Shown piece by piece: positions 1 through 12,609 of a DNA stretch of 24,653 nucleotides. Position numbers and translations under genes: made by a program. Source of the DNA: a virus; IMG/VR virus record IMGVR_UViG_3300034062_003556, positions 1-24,653 of that record; one strand, written 5' to 3'. Each line of letters starts with the position of its first letter. Within the stretch, counting starts at the first letter, position 1. The notes under the pieces are model-generated. The model worked only from the letters and a program-made list of their open reading frames with translations, did no database searches and was not told where the DNA came from.

Positions 1-222
1 TCCAGACAATATGCTAGGCCGAAACAATTGCATCTTGCTCCAGAAACCATGATCTCCGGGCAACAGTTTTATTCGCTCACACGGTACTTCACAATCGCTG
101 AAACAAACAAATCGATGTGGCAATGTTAGATTACGTTGCACACCACGTTGAAGTTTTTCTACCCAGGTAGCATCATATCCAACTTTGCCGCCTTGCCGCA
201 GCAAACATACAACATTAAGCAT
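1..222 (-). CDS. Glycosyltransferase-like protein, N-terminal part (runs off the window)
   Basis: The minus strand is open from an ATG at 222 to the window edge, giving 74 residues with no stop. The ATG lies inside the last codons of the upstream methyltransferase gene, so the two are translationally coupled. The last residues (GFWSKMQLFRPSILSG) resemble the region just before the DxD motif of the glycosyltransferase at 4599-5336 (SWWYKMQLFNPALFQG), and the start likewise reads as a beta strand followed by a helix containing Tyr-Asp and Trp-Val-Glu-Lys. I therefore infer a GT-A-fold sugar transferase paralogous to that gene. The catalytic DxD would lie just outside the window, so activity cannot be judged. 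It is the third gene of a minus-strand run behind two methyltransferases, consistent with making or decorating a surface glycan. Confidence 0.7.
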   Translation of the reverse strand, partial: MLNVVCLLRQGGKVGYDATWVEKLQRGVQRNLTLPHRFVCFSDCEVPCERIKLLPGDHGFWSKMQLFRPSILSG

Positions 223-754
223 AGCGTTCTAGTACAATCAATCCTGATGACTTGTTGCAGTGTTCTACAATGTGCCATTCTCGATTGTGATGTAGGTAAT
301 CTATTACGGCTTCAAATACTCCTGGCCAATCACTGGGATCGTGTAACACAATGTATTTTTTAGCCAAACTAGCATGCCTGGTTAACTCAGCAATACAATG
401 AGCTCTTTTGTGTACAGTATCAATAAACAACAAATCGCATTCTTCGGCTGCTACCTCTAGGCTGCTGCCTACAGAAAATTTAAAGTCAGTTCCATTTTGT
501 TTAGCATTGTATTTTAATTCTTCAAGCACAGTTAGATGCTTGTCAGTAATATCGTAACTGCGTAATTTTTTTGGTTTACCTGAAAGCCACGCACAAGTGC
601 TAAGTCCAGTATACACACCAAACTCGGTAATGCTATCTACTTTACTGGCATATCTAGTGTAGGTATCAAATCGATCAGGACTGTCGCCAAGCCAGGCTGT
701 GGGTTCAATCACAAGATTAACAAAATCTTGTTTGAGCTGGTCTAAGCTTCTCAT
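215..754 (-). CDS. Class I SAM-dependent methyltransferase (Methyltransf_24-like)
   Basis: This is a 179-residue protein. The glycine motif EFGVYTGLST at about residues 44-53 fits the SAM-binding loop. DLLFIDTVHKRAH (about 107-119) and IVLHD (135-139) match the D-x-x-H pattern of the small methyltransferase families that modify sugars and secondary metabolites. A longer reading from a TTG at 766 exists, but the ATG at 754 overlaps the stop of the upstream methyltransferase as ATGA, the usual coupling arrangement, so I prefer it. Lying between another methyltransferase and a glycosyltransferase, it probably methylates a sugar or sugar precursor in the phage-directed glycan pathway. The substrate cannot be read from the sequence. 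A CmcI-type hydroxylase is an alternative. Confidence 0.75.
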   Translation of the reverse strand: MRSLDQLKQDFVNLVIEPTAWLGDSPDRFDTYTRYASKVDSITEFGVYTGLSTCAWLSGKPKKLRSYDITDKHLTVLEELKYNAKQNGTDFKFSVGSSLEVAAEECDLLFIDTVHKRAHCIAELTRHASLAKKYIVLHDPSDWPGVFEAVIDYLHHNREWHIVEHCNKSSGLIVLERYA

Positions 755-1293
755 TGGCTCATCCAATACACACCAAGTTTGCTTTTTTGACTTTTACGAT
801 AAGAATCTTTGATATAGTGTTTCCACGTTTCTGTAACTTCCTCATGACTCCAGTCATCCTTGACGTGTGCTTCGTGAGGATTGGGATAAGCATGCTCGTC
901 TTGCGGCATATATCTAATGGGAATACTCACAATCAATGTTTTTGCCACAGCAAGAATACGATCAACCAATACTATTGCATCTTGTTTGGTCATGTGTTCT
1001 AGCACATCACCGGCAATTACTACATCAGGATTTAACACAGCCCAGTCCACGGTGCGAATGTCTTGATTCAAGACCTGGGTGTATCGTTGTTCAAGATTGA
1101 ATTCTTCGATGTAGGGTTTCCATATTTCAACCCCAATCCAGGTGGCATCAACACAGCACTTGGCGTCCTCGCGTATGAGTTTAACATAGGTTCCTGAACC
1201 AGGTCCAATGTCTACAACAGTTTTGATAGTTGATTCGTTGGCCTGAAACCATGCTAGTGTTTCTGCTTTTCCTGATTTTAAACTGTATGACAT
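751..1293 (-). CDS. Class I SAM-dependent methyltransferase
   Basis: This is a 180-residue Rossmann-type methyltransferase. Motif I is VVDIGPGSGTY (about 26-36), the acidic residue after strand 2 is in IGVEIWKPY (Glu56), and DVVIAGDVLEHM (about 90-101) is the motif IV region typical of Methyltransf_11/23-like enzymes. The ATG at 1293 has an AAGGA Shine-Dalgarno site about 8 bases upstream. An in-frame TTG at 1308 overlaps that site and is rejected. A perfect T4-type late octamer TATAAATA (1330 to 1323, minus strand) lies 29 bases upstream, so this gene should head a late minus-strand operon with the next two genes. The likely role is methylation of a sugar, lipid or small metabolite in glycan modification. 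Confidence 0.8.
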   Translation of the reverse strand: MSYSLKSGKAETLAWFQANESTIKTVVDIGPGSGTYVKLIREDAKCCVDATWIGVEIWKPYIEEFNLEQRYTQVLNQDIRTVDWAVLNPDVVIAGDVLEHMTKQDAIVLVDRILAVAKTLIVSIPIRYMPQDEHAYPNPHEAHVKDDWSHEEVTETWKHYIKDSYRKSQKSKLGVYWMSQ

Positions 1294-1317
1294 TGTTTTT
1301 CCTTGCAAGTTTTGTTA

Positions 1318-1330
1318 CTAAATATTTATA
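1318..1330. promoter_or_regulatory. Bidirectional late promoter, overlapping octamers
   Basis: The plus strand reads CTAAATA at 1318-1324 and the minus strand reads TATAAATA from 1330 to 1323, sharing the palindrome TAAATATTTA (1319-1328). TATAAATA is the T4 late promoter -10 consensus. The sites lie in the 50-base gap between the divergent genes starting at 1293 (minus) and 1344 (plus), and each points at its gene. Confidence 0.7.
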
Positions 1331-1343
1331 TACATAGATAATC

Positions 1344-2105
1344 ATGAAAGCATTTATAATTTACCTCCCAGAACGCGAGCACAGTGTTCGCCATTCTCAA
1401 ATTATGTTGGATCAACTCCGTGAGTACAACATTGACGCTGAACTGTTTGAGGGCACACCTGGCAACCGAGCAGTTGAGTTGGCAACAAAATCCAAAAAAA
1501 CACTGTATCCTTACAGCATCAAGAATCGTGTGTTAAACATGGAAGATATCAGAGAGTTGATTCGTCCAGAACTTTATGAAGAGTTTTTAAAGAAACATCG
1601 ATTTCAGATCATTGAACGACAGCTGATTGGTGATGACGGCGCAGGTAAATTGAGTCGCCCGGGCGTGATTGGTTGTTTTTACAGCCACTATGGTCTTTGG
1701 AGAAAATGCATAGACCTTAAAGAACCCATTATGATTTTTGAAGATGATGTCAAGTTCTATCGAGGATACACGCCCGTGGAGTTTGAGGGTGTGCTGATTC
1801 TCAGTCTGGGCAAAAGTTCTTACATGACTGAACCACAAAAGACCTATTTGGAAAATCCCACAGGACCTGCAATTGCTCGCAAGTGGCAAAACTTCAGCAT
1901 GCCCGGGGCCAGTGGATACGCAATCACTCCTGATGCTGCTCTGGGCCTGGTCAAGTTCTACAAACCCTACTGGTATCCAGCTGACAATGCAATCAACCAA
2001 TTTATAACTCCCATACAAATCAGCACATATCTAATGGGCCGAAACACTCTTGCTGACGAAGGCAATATATCAATGACCAAATCCAAGGACTGGCAATGCA
2101 AGTAG
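1344..2105 (+). CDS. Family 25 glycosyltransferase (LPS-type)
   Basis: This is a 253-residue protein. The N-terminus (KAFIIYLPEREHSVRHSQIM) matches the conserved start of GT25 enzymes, which begin with a strand followed by an N/D-x-x-R-S-like segment. GVIGCFYSHYGLW (about 107-119) is the family's conserved G-x-x-G-C-x-x-S-H block. It is followed by IMIFEDDVKF (about 129-138), whose EDD is the metal/sugar-nucleotide carboxylate motif. Known GT25 members transfer galactose or related sugars in lipooligosaccharide or collagen. Here the likely target is a host or phage-made surface glycan. It begins a late plus-strand operon and overlaps the next gene by 10 bases. No strong Shine-Dalgarno site is visible before the ATG. 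Confidence 0.85.
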   Translation: MKAFIIYLPEREHSVRHSQIMLDQLREYNIDAELFEGTPGNRAVELATKSKKTLYPYSIKNRVLNMEDIRELIRPELYEEFLKKHRFQIIERQLIGDDGAGKLSRPGVIGCFYSHYGLWRKCIDLKEPIMIFEDDVKFYRGYTPVEFEGVLILSLGKSSYMTEPQKTYLENPTGPAIARKWQNFSMPGASGYAITPDAALGLVKFYKPYWYPADNAINQFITPIQISTYLMGRNTLADEGNISMTKSKDWQCK

Positions 2106-3004
2106 GAATTTTCTACAATAGCATCAGCAATCCTGCCAAGTTCAGCAACAAAGTCATGTTGATGGACAACTTTGCACAAGGGGTCAAATCTCAAGGAGAC
2201 ACCATTGAGGAATTTCGCAACAACAGTTTGCCCACTCACAAATTAGATGCAGGGTTTGTGTTGGGATATACACTCGAAGACAACTTTCGTCGAAAGATAA
2301 TTGATCAATTGCGACTGCAAAAAACGCCATCGGTGTTTGTGGACAGTAATATCTTGCACTACGGCCGTCAAGAGCATGAGTGGCACAGATACAGTCTGGG
2401 GTCAGTGTATCCAGATTCTGGAACTTATTTCTTTGACAAGTTAGACAAAAACAAATGGGCCACGTTCAGTGCCTGGCACGGGGTCAGTTTGAAACCCTGG
2501 CGCACATCGGGCAATCATATTCTTGTTTTTTGCCAGCGTCCCAAGGGCTTTAACATGTTTACCGATCAAGAAGTTTGGTTAGACAAAACCCTCACCCGCA
2601 TTCGCAAGTGTAGTCCACGTCCCATCATGATTCGCATGCATCCGGGCGACGGTGCTAGACTCAAACACATAGAAAAAATAAAAAAGAAATACGGTAATAC
2701 GGTTTCTATTTCAGAACACGCAAACATTCGTGATGCATTGGTCAACTGCTGGTGTACAGTTGGACTAAACTCAACGCCCAACGTGGTGGCCGCAATTGAA
2801 GGCATTCCTGGATACATATCAGACCCTGTGCATAGCTGGGCTGCTGACGTTGCGTTCAATGACATCAGCTGGATAGAAACACCGCCGCTGCCCGACAGGT
2901 CAGAATGGATTCATAAAATTGCCAACATACATTGGTCCAATGACGAAGTCAAGTCTGGAAAACTCTGGATGTCAATCAAGCAATATATTTCTGCTTCTCA
3001 TTGA
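2096..3004 (+). CDS. GT-B-like glycosyltransferase, capsule/polysaccharide type (probable)
   Basis: This is a 302-residue protein. The clearest signature is RPIMIRMHPGD (about 175-185), a strand followed by HP-G/R, which is typical of the C-terminal Rossmann domain of capsule-polysaccharide-type and CDP-glycerol-type transferases. CTVGLNSTPNVVAAIEGIPGYI (about 220-241) follows, matching the nucleotide-binding 'SS/NS...A...G.P' loop of those families. The protein at 3790-4635 has the same two blocks (RPIVIRPHPR; NYNSGPGIQAAIAGVRP), so the two are diverged paralogs. The start overlaps the GT25 stop by 10 bases, and the 3' end overlaps the convergent gene by 29 bases. Donor and acceptor are unknown. 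Confidence 0.65.
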   Translation: MQVGIFYNSISNPAKFSNKVMLMDNFAQGVKSQGDTIEEFRNNSLPTHKLDAGFVLGYTLEDNFRRKIIDQLRLQKTPSVFVDSNILHYGRQEHEWHRYSLGSVYPDSGTYFFDKLDKNKWATFSAWHGVSLKPWRTSGNHILVFCQRPKGFNMFTDQEVWLDKTLTRIRKCSPRPIMIRMHPGDGARLKHIEKIKKKYGNTVSISEHANIRDALVNCWCTVGLNSTPNVVAAIEGIPGYISDPVHSWAADVAFNDISWIETPPLPDRSEWIHKIANIHWSNDEVKSGKLWMSIKQYISASH

Positions 3005-3773
3005 CAAAAATTTCTAGATCTTTTCTAGTGCCCTTGGCAGTCCAGATATAACCACTTTCTTGCATTTGCCAGTCAATGTATTCAGACGGAAGATTTCCCC
3101 ACTGATATTTTGGAACTAAATCAAGCAGCACATCTTGATCAATGCCCCAGTATAAATTATCAGTTTCAATATTGGTTTTTAAAATTGTTGCGTATTCTTT
3201 TAAAAAATCATGGCCGCGCACATTTCCAGTTAGATACAATCCGCCGGCTAGATATCTGGCTTTGCGACCTGAGATATAGTGTATGTAAAAATCCCTAGCA
3301 ACATCCAATGCTGGCAAGTTTTTTCGAACAACAGCATCAACATCTATGGCTAGGGCCTGAGCAGTGGGCTGAATCAATTGTTGCAGTCGTATAAATCTTG
3401 CTGAAGCAAAGTATGTACGTTGTATTCGTTGTTGAATGCTGGTGTCCTTGCCTTTGGTCATGGCAGTGAGAATTCGCCGACGACGATCAGCAAGTTCAGG
3501 ATCTGCTGACGCAGTTGCCCACTGTTTTGCACACACATCAAATAATTCTATAGGTGCATGTTCGTGGGTAACGCTAACACGGTCTCGATTGTTACAATAA
3601 GCAATTTGTTCTGGTGTGGGATTGTAAAGATGCAAATGCACACCAAACTGAGTGTTTTGTAATACACTGTTGATCAACGCAGGACCAAAATCGTTGAAGT
3701 AATCGTGATCGCATGCGGCATAGATAAAGAAATTGGACTGATCTAACTTTCCGTGGAGTGGTGGCATTAACAT
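2976..3773 (-). CDS. GT-A-like glycosyltransferase with DxD motif
   Basis: This is a 265-residue protein read from the ATG at 3773. LAIDVDAVVRKNLP (about 141-154) is a D-x-D block as in GT8-type nucleotide-sugar transferases, here Asp144-Val-Asp146. It is followed by AGGLYLTGN (about 176-184) and YWGIDQDVLLDLV (about 208-220), equivalent to the 'FN(A/S)G...' and 'DQ(D/L)' regions of GT8-like enzymes. The frame stays open upstream to a TTG at 3797, but that would place the promoter palindrome inside the gene, so the ATG at 3773 is preferred (another ATG follows two codons later). It diverges from the gene at 3790 with only 16 bases between start codons and converges on the 2096-3004 gene with a 29-base overlap. 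Confidence 0.75.
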   Translation of the reverse strand: MLMPPLHGKLDQSNFFIYAACDHDYFNDFGPALINSVLQNTQFGVHLHLYNPTPEQIAYCNNRDRVSVTHEHAPIELFDVCAKQWATASADPELADRRRRILTAMTKGKDTSIQQRIQRTYFASARFIRLQQLIQPTAQALAIDVDAVVRKNLPALDVARDFYIHYISGRKARYLAGGLYLTGNVRGHDFLKEYATILKTNIETDNLYWGIDQDVLLDLVPKYQWGNLPSEYIDWQMQESGYIWTAKGTRKDLEIFVNEKQKYIA

Positions 3774-3789
3774 AGTTAAATATTTAACT
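3774..3789. promoter_or_regulatory. Palindromic bidirectional late promoter filling a 16-bp divergent gap
   Basis: AGTTAAATATTTAACT is a perfect 16-bp palindrome. TAAATA lies at 3777-3782 on the plus strand and from 3786 to 3781 on the minus strand, each followed by 7 bases and then a start codon (GTG 3790 plus, ATG 3773 minus). Both transcripts would start at or next to the start codon, leaving no room for a Shine-Dalgarno site. Confidence 0.65.
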
Positions 3790-4635
3790 GTGATCAAGAC
3801 ACTAGCTTATTTTCCCTTACAAGTGGCACTGAATGGCAAGTCAATAATGAATTCTTTTTTGGATTATTGTCAAGCTGCCAAAATACAAACACAAGAAAAT
3901 TCAATGACAGCAGATGCTGCTGTGATATGGAGTGTGCTATGGCACGGTCGCTTGTTTGCAAATCAAGCAGTATACGAGCACTATAGATCTCAAAACAAAC
4001 CGGTTATCATAATAGAAGTGGGTGCTCTGTATCGTGGCAACACCTGGAAGATTGCAGTGAATCATGTTAACTCACAAGGTTACTATGGTCACCTGGAGAA
4101 TCTAGACTGGGATCGTCCACGTAAATTAAAGATAAGTCTTGCTACTCAATTGCTGTCACGCCCAGAAATTGTTATTGCTGTGCAGCATCGACACAGTTTA
4201 CAAGTAGAATCCATGGCGTTCAACTGGATTCAGAATCAAATTGATCAAATTAAAAAGGTGTCAGATCGTCCCATAGTAATTCGTCCACACCCTAGATCAG
4301 TTCTAGTGCTGGATCATTTGCCTCCAGGAGTCAGCATTGAACGCCCCAACAAAGTGACCGGGTCATATGACAGCTATGACATGCACTATGATTGTCATGC
4401 TGTGGTCAACTACAATTCAGGACCTGGTATACAAGCTGCAATTGCAGGAGTGCGTCCCGTAGTAGACGCTTCAAGTCTAGCACATGCTGTGGCAGTTGAT
4501 TATGCTGACATAGAAAAACCCTACACCATTGACAGAGACCTGTGGCTCACACAAATATGCCACACTGAATACACCCCCCAAGAAATACAACAAGGCCTAT
4601 GGCTAAAAAGAATAGAACCAGCACTGACGGCATAA
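3790..4635 (+). CDS. GT-B-like glycosyltransferase, paralog of the 2096-3004 protein
   Basis: This is a 281-residue protein starting with GTG immediately after the promoter palindrome. RPIVIRPHPR (about 160-169) and the later NYNSGPGIQAAIAGVRPVVD block correspond to the RPIMIRMHPGD and GLNSTPNVVAAIEGIPGY blocks of the protein at 2096-3004, pointing to the C-terminal nucleotide-sugar domain of a polysaccharide-type transferase. The C-terminal part (DRDLWLTQICHTEYTPQEIQQGLW) parallels the same place in the paralog (DRSEWIHKIANIHWSNDEVKSGKLW), so the similarity spans the whole C-terminal half. It overlaps the next gene by 37 bases. An internal ATG exists at 3847, but the GTG fits the promoter geometry. 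The exact sugar is unknown. Confidence 0.65.
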   Translation: MIKTLAYFPLQVALNGKSIMNSFLDYCQAAKIQTQENSMTADAAVIWSVLWHGRLFANQAVYEHYRSQNKPVIIIEVGALYRGNTWKIAVNHVNSQGYYGHLENLDWDRPRKLKISLATQLLSRPEIVIAVQHRHSLQVESMAFNWIQNQIDQIKKVSDRPIVIRPHPRSVLVLDHLPPGVSIERPNKVTGSYDSYDMHYDCHAVVNYNSGPGIQAAIAGVRPVVDASSLAHAVAVDYADIEKPYTIDRDLWLTQICHTEYTPQEIQQGLWLKRIEPALTA

Positions 4636-5336
4636 CTGACTGTGCTTGTGTGATACACAGCACCGGTTATGATTGGCAATATGTGGAAAAACTACACAGT
4701 ATGTTGACCAGATTCTTGCCTGGTGGTATACGTATGCATGTGTATACCGAAGCTGATAGGCCAGTTCCTGACCACATGATCAAGCATGTGCTAACAGAAT
4801 GGCCAGGCATTGCTGGTCCCAGACGAAGTTGGTGGTACAAAATGCAGTTGTTTAACCCTGCACTATTTCAGGGCAACATGCTGTATTTTGATCTGGATTG
4901 TGTTATCGTCAATGATCTGACCTGGATCACACAATTGGATTCCACAATGTTCTGGGGAATAAAAGATTTCAAATATCTTCAACAGCACGTGAGCATAATC
5001 AATTCCAGCGTGATGTGGTTCAATACCCAGGAGTTTGCTTGGCTGTGGCAACGGTTCTCTGACCAAGGTATAGATGTTGCACGGCAAGGATGCCAGGGAG
5101 ACCAAGACTACATAACCAAAAACATAGATCTAAGTCAGCGGCGCTTTTTTGACACCAAGTACTTTCAGAGCTATCGTTGGCAATGTCTAGATGGCGGCTA
5201 CGATTTTAAATATCGACGATATCACAAACCAGGCACAGGGGTCACAATTGCTCCTGACACTGCTGTGATTGTGTTTCATGGCAGTCCCAATCCGCATCAA
5301 GTAGCAAACCCTGCAATTGCTGAACTTTGGCGTTAG
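4599..5336 (+). CDS. GT-A-like glycosyltransferase with DLD motif
   Basis: This is a 245-residue protein. MLYFDLDCVIVNDL (about 94-107) contains the Asp98-x-Asp100 metal-binding motif in the hydrophobic context typical of GT8-like sugar transferases. SSVMWFN (about 136-142) and GCQGDQDYIT (about 164-173) match the following 'NSGvm.f' and 'DQ' blocks, and HGSPNPH near the C-terminus fits the conserved HxxG/P-type end motif of the family. The start overlaps the previous gene by 37 bases with no clear Shine-Dalgarno site; a GTG at about 4650 is an alternative that would remove the unconserved-looking head. It closes the glycan cluster, and its stop (5334-5336) is directly followed by the first early promoter cassette. 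The 1-222 gene looks like a paralog. Confidence 0.75.
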   Translation: MAKKNRTSTDGITDCACVIHSTGYDWQYVEKLHSMLTRFLPGGIRMHVYTEADRPVPDHMIKHVLTEWPGIAGPRRSWWYKMQLFNPALFQGNMLYFDLDCVIVNDLTWITQLDSTMFWGIKDFKYLQQHVSIINSSVMWFNTQEFAWLWQRFSDQGIDVARQGCQGDQDYITKNIDLSQRRFFDTKYFQSYRWQCLDGGYDFKYRRYHKPGTGVTIAPDTAVIVFHGSPNPHQVANPAIAELWR

Positions 5337-5337
5337 G

Positions 5338-5366
5338 TTGACCATTATTTCCCATTCTGCTATAAT
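5338..5366 (+). promoter_or_regulatory. Early sigma70-like promoter, cassette copy 1
   Basis: TTGACC (5338-5343), a 17-base spacer and TATAAT (5361-5366), with TGC just before the -10 as an extended -10. The spacer ends CCCATTCTGC, as in copy 2. It drives the gene at 5396, which has an AAGGAG site at 5385-5390. Confidence 0.85.
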
Positions 5367-5395
5367 ACACGCATAGACAGCAAAAAGGAGCAGAA

Positions 5396-5641
5396 ATGAT
5401 TGATGTGACACAAGAATACACCGTAGAGCACAACGGACGTTCATACACATTCAAGCACGGTGATCCATTTGATCGCGGCATGTCAGACAGCTACTACGGT
5501 CGTATCCGTGGTCCACACAAGGGTGGAGTTGGTGGCACAAGTGGCCTCCGCAACACAGACCTAACCCGCCAAGAGATTGCAGACTACGGTGCAGGCTACA
5601 ACTACAACGAACACACCGGCGAGAAAAAAAGCTGGGATTGA
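5396..5641 (+). CDS. Small early protein of unknown function
   Basis: An 81-residue, Gly/Tyr/Asp-rich, highly polar protein that I do not recognise. A central glycine-rich stretch (RGPHKGGVGGTSGLRN, about 40-55) suggests a flexible region, and the tail is tyrosine/asparagine rich (DYGAGYNYNEH). There is no membrane segment or cysteine motif. It has the strongest expression setup in the window: a consensus promoter, AAGGAG 5 bases before ATG, and mostly C-ending Asn/Tyr/Phe codons, which is unusual among its neighbours. The TGA stop is built into the -35 hexamer of the next promoter cassette. Position and promoter suggest an early-expressed protein acting on the host, which is inference only. 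Confidence 0.75.
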   Translation: MIDVTQEYTVEHNGRSYTFKHGDPFDRGMSDSYYGRIRGPHKGGVGGTSGLRNTDLTRQEIADYGAGYNYNEHTGEKKSWD

Positions 5642-5666
5642 CCATTAATTCCCATTCTGCTATAAT
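5638..5666 (+). promoter_or_regulatory. Early sigma70-like promoter, cassette copy 2
   Basis: TTGACC (5638-5643), 17 bases, TATAAT (5661-5666), preceded by TGC. It is nearly identical to copy 1 through the spacer (ATTAATTCCCATTCTGC versus ATTATTTCCCATTCTGC). The stop codon of the preceding gene (5639-5641) lies inside the -35 element. Confidence 0.85.
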
Positions 5667-5696
5667 TAACACTTAAACAGCAACAAGGGGCGCGAC

Positions 5697-5918
5697 ATGG
5701 GCTACAAGGTACTGGCAGACAAGTTCGAAATGGATCAGATGCGTACCAAATACGGTCCACGAAAGGGCCTAGAAGGTCCGTTCAACTTCTCAGGTCGAGT
5801 GTTGTATTATGACAACAAACAAGGCCAGTACTACGATCCTACTACAGACTTCTATGTAGAACAGGACGAAATGGATCAAATCCATGCACAATTAATGACT
5901 GTTCTGACCAAAATCTAG
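5697..5918 (+). CDS. Small early protein of unknown function
   Basis: A 73-residue protein that I do not recognise. The centre reads GRVLYYDNKQGQYYDPTTDFYV (about 33-54), an aromatic beta-hairpin-like stretch with a repeated YYD pattern, followed by an acidic helix (EQDEMDQIHAQLMTVL). The N-terminal EMDQMRTKYG and C-terminal DEMDQIHAQL share an E-M-D-Q element. There are no cysteines or membrane segments. It is expressed from promoter copy 2 with AAGGGG at 5685-5690, 6 bases before the ATG. It is followed by a hairpin (5926-5945) and promoter copy 3. Confidence 0.75.
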   Translation: MGYKVLADKFEMDQMRTKYGPRKGLEGPFNFSGRVLYYDNKQGQYYDPTTDFYVEQDEMDQIHAQLMTVLTKI

Positions 5919-5925
5919 TACTTTA

Positions 5926-5945
5926 GTGTTGCAAAAAAACAACAC
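5926..5945. other. Small hairpin between two early genes
   Basis: GTGTTG (5926-5931) and CAACAC (5940-5945) form a 6-bp stem around an A-rich loop. No U-tract follows on the plus strand, so it is not a convincing terminator; it could stabilise the mRNA 3' end or be chance. Confidence 0.35.
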
Positions 5946-5953
5946 CCAAACGG

Positions 5954-5982
5954 TTGACCCCAAATGTCCATTCTGCTATAAT
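5954..5982 (+). promoter_or_regulatory. Early sigma70-like promoter, cassette copy 3
   Basis: TTGACC (5954-5959), 17 bases, TATAAT (5977-5982) with TGC before it. The 3' half of the spacer (TCCATTCTGC) and the downstream ATTAATACTTAAACA are shared with the other copies, while the first part of the spacer has diverged. Confidence 0.85.
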
Positions 5983-6013
5983 TAATACTTAAACAGCAAA
6001 CAGGAGCCAGCAA

Positions 6014-6238
6014 ATGATCAAGCAATTTGTGCAAGTTAGTGCCCACAGAGACAGCAACAATTTTGCACATTGTAGCAACCTAAGCCTGATGGCCAATCAG
6101 AATATGAGTGCCTTACAGGCCCAGCGCTACCTGCAGGTCATGGCAGATGATTATGCCCAGCGCGGATACGCCGTTGAGTGGATTCGTGAGGACTTTGATG
6201 CAGTGTACGAAGAAATGTACGGCGAATTGTTTGCTTGA
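6014..6238 (+). CDS. Small early protein of unknown function
   Basis: A 74-residue protein that I do not recognise. The second half (about 30-74) looks like two amphipathic helices (SALQAQRYLQVMADDYAQRG and REDFDAVYEEMYGELFA), acidic at the end. There is no membrane segment. AGGAG at 6002-6006 lies 7 bases before the ATG at 6014, which decides this start over internal ATGs (for example the M of MANQNMS). It is expressed from promoter copy 3, and its TGA stop (6236-6238) is part of the -35 of copy 4. Acidic helical early phage proteins often bind host proteins, but no partner can be named here. Confidence 0.7.
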   Translation: MIKQFVQVSAHRDSNNFAHCSNLSLMANQNMSALQAQRYLQVMADDYAQRGYAVEWIREDFDAVYEEMYGELFA

Positions 6239-6263
6239 CCATTAATTCCTATTCTGTTATAAT
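6235..6263 (+). promoter_or_regulatory. Early sigma70-like promoter, cassette copy 4
   Basis: TTGACC (6235-6240), 17 bases, TATAAT (6258-6263). The spacer ATTAATTCCTATTCTGT differs from copy 2 at two positions. It drives the AAA+ gene at 6299, which has AAAGGAG at 6286-6292. Confidence 0.85.
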
Positions 6264-6298
6264 TAATACTTAAACAACGCACACCAAAGGAGCCAACC

Positions 6299-7321
6299 AT
6301 GAGTGCAATTCGTATCGTTCGCGGAGAGTATCGTAAACGTCCCGTAGCTGACCAAGTGTTTAGTCTTGTGTCAGGGTTTCAAACAGGTGCCAAAGGCAAC
6401 TTTGTGACTGTGAAAAACGACGGCAATTTCCCTAACTGCCCTGATACGATCCGTATCCGTGTTGACAACATTTCTGATATTGAGTATACTAACGGCATGA
6501 CAGACACAACCACCAACGCTGCCAAGGCAGTGGCTGCACCAGCAGAAACAGAAGAACAAGCTATTGAGCGTATTCGTGAGCGTTTTGACATCCTGCACGA
6601 AATGACCAAGGCAGCAGTCACAGGCGACATTCGTGCCATGATTGTATCAGGTCCTCCAGGTGTGGGCAAGAGCTTTGGCGTGGAGCAAGAGATTGAAAAA
6701 GCCACCATGTTTGACAAGCTAGCAGGCAAGCGACTTCGTGCAGAAGTTGTGAAAGGTGCTGCTACTCCCATTGGCCTGTATCAGACCTTGTACAAGTATT
6801 CGGACGAAAATTGTGTAGTTGTGTTTGATGACTGCGACAGCATCTTGCTGGACGATGTGAGCCTTAACTTGCTGAAGGGTGCCTTGGACTCAGGCAAGAA
6901 GCGTAAAATTAGCTGGTTGTCAGAAAGCTCGAGCCTGCGCCGCGAAGGCATCCCGGACAGTTTTGAATTCAAAGGCAGTGCCATCTTCATTACCAATTTG
7001 AAGTTTGACAAGATGAAGAGCCAGAAACTGCGGGACCACTTGGATGCATTGCAAAGCCGATGCCACTACTTGGACCTGACTCTGGACACCATGCATGACA
7101 AGATTCTGCGTATCAAGCAAATTGCCAAGGACGGCGTGTTGTTTGCAGACTACGACTTTGAATCCGAAGTGCAAGACGAGATCATTGCGTTCATGGATGC
7201 TAACCAGAATCGTCTGCGTGAAATGAGTCTGCGTATGGCTATCAAAATTGCAGACCTGCGCAAGATGAGCATGCTGAACTGGAAGCGTCTGGCAGAAACA
7301 ACTTGCATGAAAGTAGCATAA
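6299..7321 (+). CDS. AAA+ family ATPase
   Basis: A 340-residue protein. After an N-terminal domain of about 65 residues comes an AAA+ core: Walker A GPPGVGKS (about 118-125), Walker B CVVVFDDCDS (about 172-181), a sensor-I-like Asn in AIFITN (about 228-233), and arginines in the ALQSRCHYLDL segment (250-260) that could serve as the finger. The C-terminal helices (280-340) fit the AAA+ lid. It is expressed from early cassette copy 4 with a strong AAAGGAG site. An internal promoter at 6462-6490 sits 35 bases before an in-frame ATG (6497, residue 67), which would give a 274-residue form lacking the N-terminal domain. The core resembles single-domain AAA ATPases of unknown role in large phages; the target is unknown. 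Confidence 0.85.
   Translation: MSAIRIVRGEYRKRPVADQVFSLVSGFQTGAKGNFVTVKNDGNFPNCPDTIRIRVDNISDIEYTNGMTDTTTNAAKAVAAPAETEEQAIERIRERFDILHEMTKAAVTGDIRAMIVSGPPGVGKSFGVEQEIEKATMFDKLAGKRLRAEVVKGAATPIGLYQTLYKYSDENCVVVFDDCDSILLDDVSLNLLKGALDSGKKRKISWLSESSSLRREGIPDSFEFKGSAIFITNLKFDKMKSQKLRDHLDALQSRCHYLDLTLDTMHDKILRIKQIAKDGVLFADYDFESEVQDEIIAFMDANQNRLREMSLRMAIKIADLRKMSMLNWKRLAETTCMKVA
6462..6490 (+). promoter_or_regulatory. Internal leaderless-type promoter inside the AAA+ gene
   Basis: TTGACA (6462-6467), 17 bases, TATACT (6485-6490), then 6 bases to an in-frame ATG at 6497. The start point predicted about 7 bases after the -10 falls on that ATG. Four other promoters in the window have the same geometry. 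Confidence 0.55.
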
Positions 7322-7322
7322 T

Positions 7323-7430
7323 ATGTTTGAAATTTGGGATGGTGACTTGTTCTTGTATGCTGTGGACACCCAGTACGAAGCAGACGAACAGGCCGAAGCA
7401 GGCTTTATTGTAAAAGAAATCAACAAATAA
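7323..7430 (+). CDS. Very small protein (35 aa) after the AAA+ gene
   Basis: The ATG lies one base after the AAA+ stop, and the frame runs 35 codons: MFEIWDGDLFLYAVDTQY, then an acidic region (EADEQAEAGF), ending IVKEINK. The composition is protein-like (Trp, Tyr, Phe in the first half, acidic helix in the second). The tight spacing and the terminators directly behind it suggest a real cotranscribed gene. I do not recognise a function. Confidence 0.6.
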   Translation: MFEIWDGDLFLYAVDTQYEADEQAEAGFIVKEINK

Positions 7431-7431
7431 T

Positions 7432-7464
7432 CCTGGGCGCTGGTTGGCTCCGGCCCGGGCTTTT
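7432..7464 (+). terminator. Possible first terminator hairpin
   Basis: CCTGGGC (7432-7438) can pair with GCCCGGG (7453-7459), including one G-U pair, around a 14-base loop, followed by CTTTT. It is weaker than the hairpin just downstream. Confidence 0.45.
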
Positions 7465-7466
7465 GG

Positions 7467-7497
7467 CAGGTACCCTTAAAACGGTACCTGTTTTTTT
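7467..7497 (+). terminator. Rho-independent terminator of the early operon
   Basis: CAGGTACC (7467-7474) and GGTACCTG (7483-7490) make a perfect 8-bp stem with an 8-base loop, followed by seven T (7491-7497). It closes the early block. The last two T are also the first two bases of the next promoter's -35. Confidence 0.9.
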
Positions 7498-7524
7498 GAC
7501 TTCTTGCAACAACAAGTGTACACT
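7496..7524 (+). promoter_or_regulatory. Leaderless-type promoter for the 7531 gene
   Basis: TTGACT (7496-7501), 17 bases, TACACT (7519-7524), then 6 bases to ATG 7531. The predicted start point is the A of the ATG. It directly abuts the terminator U-tract. Confidence 0.6.
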
Positions 7525-7530
7525 AGCACA

Positions 7531-8391
7531 ATGAAACATCTTGTTATTGTGCTAGGGCAGTCTGACCCGCTGACTCTTCAATTTCAAATTCGCAACACTC
7601 CCGTGGCCAAGTTGTGGGTTAACAGAATGCAGGCCCGTGGAAATTATCCATTAGATCATCCCAAAAGATTTTACGGATTCAACACCCCGGAGCAAGAAAA
7701 ATCTCGAGCAGTTGATATAATCCAACAATGCATCTCAACAATCAATGCACATTCGCCAATCATCACAAGGCCATTTGAATACACACAGGATTGTTTGAAC
7801 TATCTTCACAATATATTTGAAAAATATCACGGACTACTGGACCAACAAAATACCCAATACTGGAACACCGCACCTTTGTCAGTACAGCAGGCACTGGCAG
7901 AATTAAACATAGCAGTTCACAGATGTGAAACAGCATTGGCCCAGAGCGATCCTCGATTGGTATGTACTTGGTTTGGCATGCCCAAAACTGAAAGATTAAA
8001 CACCGAATTGCAACAAGAATACGGCACCTCAGAAATCACATTTGGTACAGTGTATTTGAACTACTGCGAAATTGGCAAAACTGCAGAAGATCTAGCACAT
8101 GACAATGATAAGTACATTGCCGACGAAGCATTCAAACCATTTGATCATTACAGTGCTGATTTTAATGTTCAATTTGGCAATCGTAGCTTGCTTAAGAAAT
8201 ACGCCAACGTTGACAATTATATTCGTCAGCATCAAGACTTTTTTCTTGCACACGGCATAAAAAATGTGTATAATATAAAAGCGCAGCCTTTGCGTTTTCC
8301 TGTAGCTGATCTAGAGTACAGTGCCGACAAAAAAGATTTACTACAAAAGATTGCACAAAGACAACATGTGCAACAAGTTACTATACAATGA
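7531..8391 (+). CDS. Unknown protein upstream of uvsW
   Basis: A 286-residue protein that I do not recognise. It starts with a strand-like MKHLVIVLGQSDPLTLQF and contains mostly helical, Gln/His-rich sequence. LVCTWFGMPKTERL and NYCEIGKTAEDLAHDNDKYIADEAFKPFDHYSADFNVQFG look like the most structured, likely conserved parts. There is no P-loop, zinc motif or membrane segment. A longer reading from TTG 7504 would overlap the promoter, so ATG 7531 is preferred; no Shine-Dalgarno site precedes it, consistent with a leaderless mRNA. Its TGA stop overlaps the uvsW ATG (ATGA at 8388-8391), so it is coupled to that gene and may work in recombination or replication, which is inference from position only. 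Confidence 0.75.
   Translation: MKHLVIVLGQSDPLTLQFQIRNTPVAKLWVNRMQARGNYPLDHPKRFYGFNTPEQEKSRAVDIIQQCISTINAHSPIITRPFEYTQDCLNYLHNIFEKYHGLLDQQNTQYWNTAPLSVQQALAELNIAVHRCETALAQSDPRLVCTWFGMPKTERLNTELQQEYGTSEITFGTVYLNYCEIGKTAEDLAHDNDKYIADEAFKPFDHYSADFNVQFGNRSLLKKYANVDNYIRQHQDFFLAHGIKNVYNIKAQPLRFPVADLEYSADKKDLLQKIAQRQHVQQVTIQ
8246..8274 (+). promoter_or_regulatory. Possible internal promoter for uvsW
   Basis: TTGCAC (8246-8251), 17 bases, TATAAT (8269-8274) inside the 3' part of the 7531 gene, about 113 bases before uvsW. It is a good sigma70 match, but as it lies in coding sequence it may be fortuitous. Confidence 0.4.
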
Positions 8392-9857
8392 AACAAGCAA
8401 CAATAATCATACGAGATGAAGTCAATATCAAGATCGAAGGCCTGGATCTTGACTGTAGAAAGAAACTGGTTAACACATTCAAGTATGAAATTCCTGGGGC
8501 AAGATATCAACCCGCAGTGAGACTGGGTCGGTGGGATGGCAAGGTAGCTTACTTTCAATTGGGTGGGTCCAGCTACATCAATCTCTTGCCCGAAATAATT
8601 CCTATTCTAGAACAATATGATTATGACATTGAACTGGATGATCAACGTGATTATTCCACTGTGTTTGATTTTGTGCAGGTAACAGAAGATTCATTTGCAC
8701 ACAAAACTTGGCCTCAGGGGCATCCTACTGTGGGTCAACCCATCTTGTTGCGTGACTATCAAGTAGAGATTGTGAACAACTATCTGCAGAATCCGCAGTG
8801 CATACAAGAAGTGGCCACAGGCGCAGGCAAAACACTCATGACTGCTGCCTTGAGCAAGAGCGTGGAAGCATATGGTCGCAGTATCATTATTGTACCCAAC
8901 AAGAGCTTGGTAACACAAACAGAAAAAGACTATGTCAATCTAGGCCTGGATGTGGGCGTGTACTTCGGTGATCAAAAAGACTACGACCGAACCCACACCA
9001 TATGCACATGGCAAAGTCTAAACAACATGATGAAGAAAACCAAGTCAGGCGAAGCCGAAGTGGACATTCAGGACTTTATCGAAGGCGTGGTTTGTGTGAT
9101 TGTGGACGAAGTACACATGGCCAAAGCAGATGCCTTAAAAACCTTGCTTACAGGTGTCATGGCTAGAGTGCCAATTCGATGGGGGTTGACAGGAACTGTG
9201 CCCAAAGAAAAGTTTGAAAGCCAAAGTCTGCTGGTAAGCCTGGGCCCTGTTATCAGCAAGCTCAGTGCCAGTGAACTACAGGATCGTGGCGTGCTGGCCC
9301 AGTGCCATGTGAACATCGTGCAACTGATAGACCATGTGGAATACAGCAACTATCAAAGCGAGCTAAAATACCTGCTAGAAGAGTCAGGTAGATTAGACAC
9401 CATAGCAGATCTGGTGCGTCGAGTAAACGAAACTGGCAATACCTTAGTGCTGGTTGACCGCACAGAGTGTGGTAGACAACTGGTAGCACGACTGGGAGAA
9501 AAAGCTGTGTTTGTGTCCGGAGCAACAAAGGGCACAAAGAGGCAAGAAGAATATGACGAAGTAGCAGATGCCACAGACAAGATCATTGTGGCCACTTATG
9601 GTGTGGCTGCTGTGGGTATTAACATACCGCGAATCTTTAATCTTGTGCTGATTGAACCAGGCAAATCATTTGTTAGAGTTATCCAGTCAATTGGACGTGG
9701 TATTCGCAAAGCCGAAGACAAAGATCATGTGCAGATCTGGGACATAACCAGCACATGCAAGTTTGCCAAACGCCATCTTACCAAACGCAAACAATTCTAC
9801 AAAGAAGCCAATTATCCGTTCTCAGCAGAGAAACTAGACTGGATGAAGATCAACTAA
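8388..9857 (+). CDS. uvsW: UvsW-type SF2 DNA/RNA helicase
   Basis: A 489-residue protein, close to the 503 of T4 UvsW. The N-terminal domain (about 1-115) includes RLGRWDGKVAYF, typical of the UvsW N-domain. Helicase motifs follow in order: RDYQVEIV (Q-like, about 122-129), Walker A ATGAGKT (143-149), IIVPNKSLV (motif Ia, about 167-175), VDEVH (motif II, 239-243), GLTGT (motif III, 266-270) and QSIGRGIRK (motif VI, 433-441). T4 UvsW unwinds branched DNA and R-loops, promotes replication fork regression and switches origin-dependent to recombination-dependent replication. It starts at an ATGA overlap with the previous gene. Confidence 0.92.
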   Translation: MKQATIIIRDEVNIKIEGLDLDCRKKLVNTFKYEIPGARYQPAVRLGRWDGKVAYFQLGGSSYINLLPEIIPILEQYDYDIELDDQRDYSTVFDFVQVTEDSFAHKTWPQGHPTVGQPILLRDYQVEIVNNYLQNPQCIQEVATGAGKTLMTAALSKSVEAYGRSIIIVPNKSLVTQTEKDYVNLGLDVGVYFGDQKDYDRTHTICTWQSLNNMMKKTKSGEAEVDIQDFIEGVVCVIVDEVHMAKADALKTLLTGVMARVPIRWGLTGTVPKEKFESQSLLVSLGPVISKLSASELQDRGVLAQCHVNIVQLIDHVEYSNYQSELKYLLEESGRLDTIADLVRRVNETGNTLVLVDRTECGRQLVARLGEKAVFVSGATKGTKRQEEYDEVADATDKIIVATYGVAAVGINIPRIFNLVLIEPGKSFVRVIQSIGRGIRKAEDKDHVQIWDITSTCKFAKRHLTKRKQFYKEANYPFSAEKLDWMKIN

Positions 9858-9860
9858 TGG

Positions 9861-9889
9861 TTGACTTTGTGGCACAAACACTATATTAT
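9861..9889 (+). promoter_or_regulatory. Leaderless-type promoter for the 9896 gene
   Basis: TTGACT (9861-9866), 17 bases, TATTAT (9884-9889), 6 bases, ATG 9896. It lies in the 38-base gap after uvsW. No Shine-Dalgarno site precedes the ATG. Confidence 0.65.
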
Positions 9890-9895
9890 TAACAC

Positions 9896-10396
9896 ATGCG
9901 AATTCTAACACTAGACAACACTTATTATGATCTTGATCATCTGCCTGAAGAAGTAGATGATATGAGATTTGCTATCTTGGATAATTCAAACCCCCAAGAT
10001 CCTGATTATCATTTCATTCCTTTGATCTTTTTAGAGAGTTTTAACGCTCCTGCACTAGTGTTGAGAATTGGTAATGCCACTATCAAAATGCCCATGGACT
10101 GGCAAATTCTAATAGGCGAGCCCGATGTTGGTGATCTAGAGGTATTGCCGTTGACCAGTATCAACGATCGCGGATTCAAGGTGTTTCAATTCAATCCGCT
10201 TACTAGCTACAGACCCAGTTTTCCAGACATTGAAATTCTGGATGTTTACCATGAAGTAAACTGGTATGCACCCAAATTAAAAAATGGGCAGATGCTGGCA
10301 GTGCCTCTGAATGATGATGCAGAACCTGACTGTGTGTACTTTGTCAAAGACGTCAGCCGCAATTGTGAAATCGTGGACTACAACAAGGCTTGGTAA
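9896..10396 (+). CDS. Conserved-looking phage protein of unknown function
   Basis: A 166-residue acidic protein, mostly predicted beta strands (RILTLDNTYYDLDHLPEE; ALVLRIGNATIKMPMDWQILIGEP; MLAVPLNDDAEPDCVYFVKDV). The middle part (about 56-85) reads like a small beta-barrel repeated toward the C-terminus (NGQMLAVPLND...). There is no nucleotide-binding motif, zinc site or membrane segment. It sits directly after uvsW with its own promoter and is followed by a 47-residue gene at a TAATG overlap, so the next three genes are probably cotranscribed. The family is not recognised. Confidence 0.75.
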   Translation: MRILTLDNTYYDLDHLPEEVDDMRFAILDNSNPQDPDYHFIPLIFLESFNAPALVLRIGNATIKMPMDWQILIGEPDVGDLEVLPLTSINDRGFKVFQFNPLTSYRPSFPDIEILDVYHEVNWYAPKLKNGQMLAVPLNDDAEPDCVYFVKDVSRNCEIVDYNKAW

Positions 10397-10539
10397 TGTA
10401 CACAGAACCTCAGTTATTTGAAACACTTGCTCGCCTGGTCAGGATATATGCGGAAAGCTATCCTGACGATCGAGAAGGACTAGAACGATTCTTGCACTGG
10501 GCACATGCACAATACGGTTACACATATGGGCCAGCTTAA
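10396..10539 (+). CDS. Small protein (47 aa) of unknown function
   Basis: The ATG at 10396 overlaps the previous stop as TAATG, and the frame runs 47 codons: MYTEPQLFETLARLVRIYAE, then SYPDDREGLERFLHWAHAQY. It appears to be two helices with regularly spaced Leu/Phe and charged residues, so the translation looks genuine. The stop lies 14 bases inside the next gene if that starts at 10526. Function is unknown. Confidence 0.6.
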   Translation: MYTEPQLFETLARLVRIYAESYPDDREGLERFLHWAHAQYGYTYGPA

Positions 10540-10783
10540 ACCAGGCGCAACCTACATTTACGAACGGGTCGGCGACACTGTGTTCAGAAGAGAGTCTGGT
10601 GCCCTGGACCGTGAAGTAGTCGGCTACGACGCCCGCACCATTGATGGCAGACCGTTGGTTGATCATATACAGGAAGAAAAACTGTGGGGTCAGATTAGAC
10701 AAGCTGCCCGGACCAATCCTGCTTTACAAGATGCATTAGAACGTGCTATAATGATTTACCAACTTAGTAAAACCAATGAGTGA
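10526..10783 (+). CDS. Small phage protein of unknown function
   Basis: An 85-residue protein from ATG 10526. Its head (MGQLKPGATYIYERVGDTVFRRE) looks like a conserved family start, a beta hairpin, so I prefer it to the ATG at 10505, which adds seven unremarkable residues. A middle segment (REVVGYDARTIDGRP) is followed by a C-terminal helix (LWGQIRQAARTNPALQDALERAIMIYQLS). It overlaps the previous gene by 14 bases and the next by 8, part of a tightly packed run leading to the clamp-loader candidate. No enzymatic motif is visible. Confidence 0.65.
   Translation: MGQLKPGATYIYERVGDTVFRRESGALDREVVGYDARTIDGRPLVDHIQEEKLWGQIRQAARTNPALQDALERAIMIYQLSKTNE
10723..10752 (+). promoter_or_regulatory. Possible promoter for the clamp-loader candidate
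   Basis: TTTACA (10723-10728), 18 bases, TATAAT (10747-10752), 23 bases before ATG 10776. It lies within the preceding gene, so it may be chance. There is no strong Shine-Dalgarno site downstream. Confidence 0.4.
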
Positions 10784-11222
10784 TAAACTACATATTGGCA
10801 ACGAAATGCGCCAACTGGATCTCAAGAACAGAGACTTCTACGACAGCTTAGATACGGAAGAACGCAAGAAGTTTAGCACATTTCTCATGATACGCTGGAG
10901 CAGTGCAGTAGAAGGCTCCCGCGAACTACAAGAGTATTATGTACAAAGTGCCAATCACTATGTGAACAAGCATTTCTTTACACTCAGCAAGCACCCCAAA
11001 CTGCAATGGTTGTGTGCAACTGCTGCAAGCCCGGGCATGGGTGCGCTACGTCATAACTGGATTGCGCCCAAAAAGAAAGAAGCAGGTGCCGGCACCAAAC
11101 GCAAAGCACTGGCCGCAATGTTTCCGCACTACAAAGACGATGAGATCGACGTCATGATGCAGATAGTCTCACAAAAAGAAATTGACGCTTATCACAAGAG
11201 TACTGGCCTTGATAAGAAATGA
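10776..11222 (+). CDS. Probable sliding-clamp loader small subunit (gp62-like)
   Basis: A 148-residue protein. LKNRDFYDSLDTEERKKF (about 16-33), HYVNKHFFTLSKHPKLQWL (about 61-79) and MGALRHNWIAPKKK (about 88-101), followed by AAMFPHYKDDEIDVM (about 113-127), recall from memory the small clamp-loader A subunits annotated in marine T4-like phages; T4 gp62 itself (187 aa) is not obviously similar. In T4, gp62 forms a complex with the AAA+ ATPase gp44 and loads the gp45 clamp for gp43 polymerase. The gp44, gp45 and gp43 genes are not in this window. The position between uvsW and the primase/helicase genes supports a replication role. The 3' end overlaps the next start by four bases (ATGA). Confidence 0.55.
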   Translation: MSDKLHIGNEMRQLDLKNRDFYDSLDTEERKKFSTFLMIRWSSAVEGSRELQEYYVQSANHYVNKHFFTLSKHPKLQWLCATAASPGMGALRHNWIAPKKKEAGAGTKRKALAAMFPHYKDDEIDVMMQIVSQKEIDAYHKSTGLDKK

Positions 11223-11938
11223 TTCAACAGTTAGTGGTCAATGGTTGCAGTTACATGGACATGTACGCTCAAGGTGGCGGCCATGTTGATCTAGCACAAC
11301 AACTTGGTATTGCCAATTGTTTCAGCCTAGCCATTGGCGGTAGTGCAAACTCTCGTATTATACGTACCACTCTCAAACACAGTTATCAAACCACAGTGCC
11401 CACGTTTTATTTACTGGGTATGACATTCCTTAGCAGGCTTGAATGGCCTATTTTGTATCAAGATACCACTCGTGAGTTTGAAGGGGTATGGACCAACCCT
11501 CAAAATCAACAATTTCAAAATCAATGGGTGCCACACTGGACTGATCAGGACACCAAACAATGGATAAAACTCAAGCTCAAAAGTGAACTTCATAGCATTA
11601 CAGATCGATTGGAAGATCTAATGTACCGCATGTTGAGTTTGCAGGACAGTTTGATTGCTCGCGGCCACCGTGTGCTGATGTATCAACAAGCAGACAACAT
11701 TTATCAGGAATTCCTTGAAGATTCTCGTTTTGAACTTTTAAAAAACAATACGGGCATCAAAGACGGGTTTGCCTGGCGATCAATTGCGTGGCAACACATG
11801 CATAAAGTTGCTGCCACAATCTATTCCGAAGGAAGTCAATATGTGCCATCAGACATGACTCATCCACTTGCTGGACATCATTTGATGATCAATACTCATT
11901 TGACACAGTACATTAAAGATAGTAAACTACTAGCATGA
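11219..11938 (+). CDS. SGNH/GDSL-type hydrolase-like protein
   Basis: A 239-residue protein. VVNGCSYMDMY (about 6-16) fits block I of SGNH enzymes with Ser11 as the nucleophile (phage versions often read GCS instead of GDS). AIGGSANSRI (about 38-47) fits the block II glycine and nearby residues. DMTHPLAGHHL (about 212-222) gives the D-x-x-H catalytic pair of block V, Asp212 and His215. SGNH enzymes are esterases or acetylesterases, often acting on polysaccharides; many such phage proteins are placed among structural or glycan genes. Here it sits between clamp-loader-like and zinc-finger genes, so its expression is probably not late. The substrate is unknown. Confidence 0.65.
   Translation: MIQQLVVNGCSYMDMYAQGGGHVDLAQQLGIANCFSLAIGGSANSRIIRTTLKHSYQTTVPTFYLLGMTFLSRLEWPILYQDTTREFEGVWTNPQNQQFQNQWVPHWTDQDTKQWIKLKLKSELHSITDRLEDLMYRMLSLQDSLIARGHRVLMYQQADNIYQEFLEDSRFELLKNNTGIKDGFAWRSIAWQHMHKVAATIYSEGSQYVPSDMTHPLAGHHLMINTHLTQYIKDSKLLA
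11900..11928 (+). promoter_or_regulatory. Leaderless-type promoter for the 11935 gene
   Basis: TTGACA (11900-11905), 17 bases, TAAACT (11923-11928), 6 bases, ATG 11935. It lies in the 3' end of the SGNH gene. The same 35-base -35-to-ATG spacing occurs at four other genes here. Confidence 0.5.
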
Positions 11939-12609
11939 CATTTGCATGTGCTTACTGCAAGAAAACTTTTGTAAAGGAAACTTCTATTGAAGTGCATGTG
12001 TGCGAGCCCAAACGCCGTGCATTACAAAAGGACGATCCCGGAGTCAGGCTTGGGTTTCAAGCATATCTGCGATTCTACGAAACCATGCAAGGATCGTCCC
12101 GTAACAAAACCTACGAAGACTTTGCTGGATCAGCCTACTATCGAGCCTTTGTGAAATTTGGGCGTTACTGCGTGGACACTCGCACAATCAATCCAGCTCA
12201 GTTCATGCTGTGGCTATTAAAGGCACAGAAAAAGATTGACTACTGGTGCAGTGACAAAGTCTATACAGAATACTTGCTGTACTATCTACAAATAGAAGCA
12301 GTGGATGATGCACTGGCTCGAGCAATTGAATACAGCATGACCTGGCAAGAAAACACAGGCCATCCTGCACATGACTGTTTGCGTTATGGTAATACCAATG
12401 CAGCATGCCATGCAATAACGTCAGGACGGATAAGTCCATGGGTGATTTACAACTCGGAATCAGGACAAAAGTTTTTGAGCGGCCTGGATCCCACTCAGGT
12501 GGCCATGATCTGGAGCTACATTGATTCAGATGTATGGCAAAAACGTTTTAGAGATCGTTCCGAAGATCAAGCATATGCACAAGAAATTTTAACCAAGGCA
12601 GGATGGTAA
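11935..12609 (+). CDS. Zinc-finger phage protein of unknown function
   Basis: A 224-residue protein that opens with a single C2H2-like finger: CAYC (Cys5, Cys8) ... HVC (His21, Cys23), with the Phe and Leu-like spacing of a classical finger. The remainder is helical and aromatic (YLRFYETM; YYRAFVKFGRYCVDTRTINPAQFMLWLL; YCSDKVYTEYLLYYL-like), without catalytic motifs I can name. The C-terminus (GLDPTQVAMIWSYIDSDVWQKRF) looks like a separate helical bundle. A DNA- or RNA-binding role is a reasonable inference from the finger and the replication context. It starts on an ATGA overlap with the SGNH gene and has its own leaderless-type promoter. Confidence 0.7.
   Translation: MTFACAYCKKTFVKETSIEVHVCEPKRRALQKDDPGVRLGFQAYLRFYETMQGSSRNKTYEDFAGSAYYRAFVKFGRYCVDTRTINPAQFMLWLLKAQKKIDYWCSDKVYTEYLLYYLQIEAVDDALARAIEYSMTWQENTGHPAHDCLRYGNTNAACHAITSGRISPWVIYNSESGQKFLSGLDPTQVAMIWSYIDSDVWQKRFRDRSEDQAYAQEILTKAGW

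Follow-up and report, generated by a model that had tools for sequence, protein, structure and literature searches.

A phage AAA+ ATPase gene with a conserved candidate start signal at the boundary between its N-terminal domain and its core

The gene considered here lies at positions 6299-7321 of a 24,653-base virus record, the whole of which was analysed and is referred to below as the window; close relatives (L011 and L019) are found on contigs of 340 and 349 kb, and the phages concerned are large ones known through environmental DNA. The gene and its signals are laid out as follows.

6235-6263, plus strand: promoter cassette 4, TTGACC-17-TATAAT, for the full-length mRNA (consensus match)
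6287-6292, plus strand: Shine-Dalgarno AAGGAG of the full-length start (sequence; duplex energy -7.9 kcal/mol)
6299-7321, plus strand: full-length AAA+ ATPase, 340 aa, ATG start, phrog_1250 / NrdC.10 family (profile matches)
6299-6490, plus strand: N-terminal beta domain, strands within residues 3-64 (AlphaFold models)
6462-6490, plus strand: putative gene-internal promoter TTGACA-17-TATACT (consensus match; wobble bases kept in relatives)
6494-6541, plus strand: disordered linker, residues 66-81 (pLDDT < 50)
6497-7321, plus strand: predicted short form, linker and AAA+ core, 274 aa, from Met67, on a predicted leaderless mRNA from 6497 (-10-to-ATG spacing)
6551-7318, plus strand: AAA+ core (Walker motifs, Pfam, AlphaFold model, structure alignment)
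7465-7492, plus strand: intrinsic-terminator-like hairpin that could end both transcripts (10-pair stem, then a T run), a consensus match only, with 12 such sites in 1-12500 against 10.5 in shuffles

The protein matches the phrog_1250 profile over residues 50-338 (E = 1.2e-82), a family whose function is given as unknown in its PHROGs entry, and reaches 23.3 bits against a cut-off of 21.2 for Pfam AAA (PF00004). The Walker A motif is GPPGVGKS at 6650-6673, and Walker B lies around VVVFDDCDS. Matches to the window protein occur in 1236 of 50,697 phage records. An AlphaFold model built with 41 relatives as input has a mean pLDDT of 72.0 and a pTM of 0.53, and the N-terminal domain modelled alone has a mean pLDDT of 86.9. 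In the predicted structure, residues 66-81 (pLDDT < 50) part the N-terminal domain from the AAA+ core, which puts Met67 at the junction of the two, where a sequence-only reading of this DNA had already placed the in-frame ATG at 6497.

Structural comparison of the core with known AAA+ proteins (VIA-align) gave Z scores of up to 11.8, with an rmsd of 3.7 over 209 residues. NorQ/CbbQ, sigma-54 activators, Orc/Cdc6 and DnaA all fall within 1 Z unit of one another, and there are weak sequence matches to RFC; no single AAA+ clade stands out as the closest to the core. ClpB has two AAA modules, and two modules define the ClpB/Hsp100 family; this hallmark is not present in a protein of 340 aa with one Walker A. 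The beta N-terminal domain ahead of the AAA+ core, seen in the AlphaFold models of the window protein, aligns with that of family members from RB14, vB_Pa-PAC2, Atu_ph07 and Vibrio phage. Searched alone against phage records (tblastn, E 0.1), the domain of the window protein found no match, and we give it no fold name because its best Foldseek match to a solved structure has an E of 0.78. Other searches on the family were also negative. PADLOC, consulted for a defence role, had no match for two family members, and NCBIfam had none for three of four, the fourth giving two weak, sub-threshold clamp-loader matches. The vB_Pa-PAC2 protein, used alone as a query over viral contigs, found no relative. 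A literature search on PHROG 1250 found no paper, and searches on internal or leaderless starts in phages returned no title on an nrdC.10-family gene.

The promoter ahead of the gene is one of four near-identical cassettes (5338-5366, 5638-5666, 5954-5982 and 6235-6263), each TTGACC-17-TATAAT with a TG before the -10; in those at 5638 and 6235 the TGA that ends the preceding gene lies partly within the TTGACC. The small protein encoded at 5697-5918 resembles the OCRE domain below threshold (22.8 bits, cut-off 24.7) and matches phrog_13298, whose function is unknown. The sequence-only reading held that a full-length form is driven by cassette 4, and the 340-aa open reading frame, its AAGGAG and the TTGACC-17-TATAAT promoter are indeed all present. 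Among relatives with enough 5′ sequence, a promoter-like site (at least 10/12 within 120 nt of the full-length gene) precedes 77 of 77 genes that have Met67 and 108 of 114 others.

The same reading proposed a promoter inside the gene that points at ATG 6497. Such a site exists, TTGACA-17-TATACT, which matches the consensus at 11/12. Sites of 11/12 quality number seven in the whole window, the four cassettes included, against 0.57 expected in first-order random sequence (both strands, 60 draws); one of them, TTGACA-17-TACAAT at 23387-23415, lies inside the open reading frame 23186-23596. The ATG lies 7 nt past the last base of the internal -10. This is the usual distance from a -10 to the start of transcription, and the A of the ATG is therefore the expected first transcribed base, so that the short mRNA is predicted to be leaderless, a point that goes beyond the earlier reading. 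The Shine-Dalgarno duplex at this ATG is weak (-2.2 kcal/mol, calculated, as were all duplex energies, with the anti-Shine-Dalgarno string).

Whether these bases are held as a promoter or simply as codons was examined in sets of relatives. The first set held 133 distinct genes (L031, L037, L108, L109 and L114 excluded), and a set of 80 sequences left out L031, a cut gene, and 12 identical sequences. From 388 sequences in all, 369 were kept, those taken out being 11 genes for the core alone, three cut at the contig start and some in which no start was placed; these gave 258 distinct genes, and those at 55% identity or more form the set of 200. Met stands at column 67 in 84 of the 200 (the Met67 group), a count that keeps 8 distant genes with Met there by alignment only.

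A first test of synonymous change was not decisive. Codons around 263-280 (7085-7140), for which no cause was found, are as low as the promoter segment, and low synonymous change alone is thus no proof of a promoter. The test was followed by comparison with control columns, by shuffling of codons and by scans that left wobble bases free. In the Met67 group, Asp56 is GAC in 73 of 73 genes, with no change on the tree against an average of 8.6 over Asp columns; Thr64 is ACT in 73 of 77, the fewest changes among 11 Thr columns; and Val55 is GTT or GTA in 77 of 77, the second lowest of 15 Val columns. Relatives without Met67 have GAT in 40 and GAC in 11 at Asp56 and use all four Val codons at Val55. 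The control Asp60, four codons past Asp56, is GAT in 50 and GAC in 32 genes of the Met67 group. The joint constancy of Val55, Asp56, Tyr63 and Thr64 has a p of 0.004 by random draw over columns of like residues. A promoter score of at least 10/12 is reached by 79% of Met67 genes, against 20% after synonymous codons were shuffled within genes; in 22 of the 84 the -35 reads TAGACA, which matches less well.

The spacing is held as well. TA[T/C]ACT stands at the exact leaderless distance from the ATG in 73 of the 84 Met67 genes and TATACC in 3, the remaining 8 being the distant genes aligned by chance, and a -10-like hexamer at this distance precedes none of 1980 other in-frame internal ATGs. A promoter pattern with its wobble positions left free, but with the ATG required, matched 78 stretches of viral contigs, 40 of them distinct and all in this ATPase family. 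Asp56 is GAC and Thr64 is ACT in 78 of 78, and the control Asp60 is GAT in 52 and GAC in 26. Only 8 of the 78 stretches lie outside relatives already in the set, and the weight of the scan is the absence of any synonymous variant across the viral collection. RNA structure was tried as a cause of the conserved bases and rejected, no consensus pair appearing in 32 sequences.

These counts bear on the view that codon or protein constraint alone accounts for the conserved bases, the promoter and the Shine-Dalgarno sites being chance. It draws on the low synonymous change seen elsewhere, as at codons 263-280, on another Asp column that equals Asp56 in invariance, and on Tyr63, whose wobble is the third base of the -10 and which is unconstrained (10 changes against 11.2 expected). 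The free-wobble scans with their Asp60 control, the 1980 control ATGs and, in relatives without Met67, the rarity of GGA at all 18 other Gly columns counted speak against it, and we regard it as highly improbable. By these counts the promoter bases do more than follow the protein code, and one of the outcomes that the sequence-only reading had named as fatal to its proposal did not arise; at the -35 and -10, wobble bases are kept even though the code would allow others.

Many relatives that lack the promoter carry, at that position, an internal Shine-Dalgarno start, which the earlier reading had not mentioned. In the first set, 75 genes have Met at column 67, 39 have Asp and 19 have Glu. Among the 58 Asp or Glu genes, 48 have GGA at Gly66 and with it a GGAG Shine-Dalgarno sequence, five bases before a Val codon, and the Val codon after GGAG is GTG in 52 of 57. 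In the set of 200, GGA encodes Gly66 in 64 of 91 genes that lack Met67, against at most 21% at the 18 other Gly columns, and in 1 of 55 genes that have Met67. An in-frame start codon follows 2-4 codons on in 61 of 63 GGAG genes, where 32.6 would be expected from their own codon use (at +3, 55 GTG and 1 ATG; at +4, 4 ATG and 1 GTG), and in 9 of 28 genes without GGAG. A second free-wobble pattern found GGA in 42 of 42 and GTG in 42 of 42 matches (15 distinct sequences), 21 of the 42 lying outside relatives already in the set; both scans largely resample the contigs of those relatives. The two signals are not strictly exclusive, since L102, L130 and their relatives retain TATACT beside GGAG and GTG. 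Distant members have different linkers with strong sites, such as CGAGGAGGACATTATG in L242. Over the 258 distinct genes, a linker start with a duplex energy of -6 or better is present in 93 (36%), where shuffled codons give 9.7% and core windows 5.4%; a limit of -8 leaves a small excess (5.0%, against 2.9% and 1.5%, respectively). A conserved initiation signal, either the Met67 promoter or GGAG with a start, is thus present at the boundary between the N-terminal domain and the core.

The internal promoter might instead be real but serve the open reading frame at 7323-7430 or tune the level of transcript, with no short ATPase in the lineage of the window. That frame, of 35 aa (MFEIWDGDLFLY...), lies directly 3′ of the ATPase gene, and a transcript from the internal promoter would also include it ahead of the terminator-like hairpin. 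Yet the small frame is recognisable after the gene in just 24 of 197 relatives, the ATG sits on the predicted +1 of TA[T/C]AC[T/C] in 76 of the 84 Met67 genes, and sister lineages have, at this position, a signal for translation alone. We think it very unlikely that the promoter has such a role without a short ATPase.

Separate genes for the two parts of the protein, for which the sequence-only reading had looked to relatives, exist as far as the core is concerned. Eleven loci, among 388 sequences of which many come from the same contigs, encode the AAA+ core without the N-terminal domain. Their reading frames begin in the linker region, and every one is preceded by a promoter-like site (9 to 12 of 12) and a Shine-Dalgarno sequence (-5.6 to -9.3) of its own. 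The core-only protein is therefore a natural product in some phages. The counterpart did not appear: no gene for the N-terminal domain was found at E 0.001 in these 11 records, which are fragments, by a search that recovered its positive control in 5 of 5 records, and no second copy of the ATPase gene was found there. The first residues of three core-only proteins (MVAKTIKF and similar) resemble, by eye, the linkers of two-domain members (NTVKF). This likeness, together with the promoter-like sites and linker-region starts of the 11 loci, would fit a history in which an N-terminal domain was joined to an older gene for the core alone that already had a promoter and a start, Met67 and the promoter now being unused fossils of that gene. 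Unused remains should drift, yet the wobble bases are held in 78 of 78 matches at two codons, and in genes without Met67 a different signal, GGAG with a start, is often there and is held at silent positions. We consider this history unlikely.

When the 200 genes are labelled by the leaderless arrangement or by a linker start at -5 or better, 74 have the former, 89 the latter and 37 neither. In the sub-clade of L067 and its near relatives, 10 of 16 genes lack both the leaderless arrangement and a linker start at -5 or better. Both signals are also missing from the homologs examined of RB14 (T4-type) and of Ackermann type, in which no linker start reaches -6. On the trees the arrangements are intermingled, with 26 changes over 200 genes on the protein tree and 15 over 147 genes on the DNA tree, and L123 and L163 have identical core proteins with different start signals. 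Independent pairs for Gly66, too few for significance on either tree, were 3 supported pairs on the DNA tree (2.2 in the expected direction, 0.0 in the opposite) and 2 on the protein tree (0.9 and 0.8). After clustering at 70%, a linker start at -6 or better is found in 14 of 51 clusters, several of the per-cluster nulls being above 0.2. The independent-pair tests are thus underpowered, and repeated switching between the two signals is suggested rather than shown.

The reading that we prefer, and consider probable, is that two ATPases, one long and one short, are made from this gene, the latter through an internal promoter and leaderless mRNA or, in sister lineages, through an internal GGAG. 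Its basis lies in the DNA and in predicted structure: the anatomy of the gene, the predicted domain boundary, the conservation of both signals at the nucleotide level, the core-only genes and the near absence of GGA where Met67 is present. The long form, with N-terminal domain, linker and AAA+ core, would be transcribed from cassette 4 and translated from a standard ribosome-binding site, and the short form, linker and core, would begin at the junction of N-terminal domain and linker. In the lineage of the window, the gene-internal promoter would give a transcript that begins at the A of ATG 6497 and is translated without a leader, and both proteins would be produced. As the short form would here need its own transcript, its timing could differ from that of the long form. 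Sister lineages would translate this short protein from the long mRNA, by way of the internal GGAG and of a start codon, GTG or ATG, that follows within a few codons, and one mRNA could yield both forms. The ATPase may be an oligomer of mixed long and short subunits in which the N-terminal domain sets the partner or substrate, much as the sequence-only reading had proposed a mixed hexamer as a way to govern substrate binding, and, by analogy with ClpB and T7 gene 4, rings with fewer N-terminal domains would be the likely use of the short form.

That relatives mark the second start with one of two different signals suggests that the short form matters. We are inclined, with confidence a little above even, to a broader view, that this family of large phages maintains a single truncated AAA+ isoform by means of two interchangeable devices, placed at almost the same codon and exchanged even where the cores are identical (L123 and L163). 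Transcription would then set the ratio of long to short form in one lineage, and translation would do so in the other. On this account, two products with their start points are predicted for a phage ATPase family present in more than 1200 phage records, and the core alone is suggested to have a job of its own. The family would also allow leaderless initiation to be compared, in nature, with Shine-Dalgarno initiation for the same protein. If rings do mix long and short subunits, the role of the N-terminal domain in the phrog_1250 family becomes testable.

Known systems offer parallels to parts of this arrangement. The gene 4 proteins of T7, of 63 and 56 kDa, are a phage ring ATPase in a long and a short form made from an internal start. 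The likeness to the present family lies in the two forms of a phage ring ATPase; T7 gp4, however, is a RecA-type primase-helicase. T4 nrdC.10 (PMC1524935) belongs to the same family as the window gene, with an N-terminal domain followed by an AAA+ core; RB14 nrdC.10 differs in that its linker contains no start at -6 or better. In the jumbo phage AR9, late promoters were mapped inside open reading frames and N-terminally truncated proteins were suggested, although a conserved internal start placed where two domains meet is not described in the available part of that report (PMC5312081). ClpB is closer in the kind of protein, an AAA+ ATPase with a conserved internal GTG start past its N-terminal domain, itself attached through a short unstructured linker, and with coexisting long and short forms; it differs in being a cellular disaggregase, and no leaderless alternative is described in the available text (PMC6168691). 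The direct precedent for the leaderless device is Shigella VirF, in which, according to the part of the article at hand, a gene-internal promoter gives a leaderless mRNA, with its 5′ end 1-2 nt before an internal in-frame ATG, and thereby VirF21, an N-terminally truncated product beside VirF30 (PMC5101355). VirF is an AraC-like regulator, not an ATPase (PMC5101355). In the phage gene, where promoter and spacing are read from the sequence, the transcript is predicted to start on the ATG itself, and sister genes appear to use an internal Shine-Dalgarno signal in its place.
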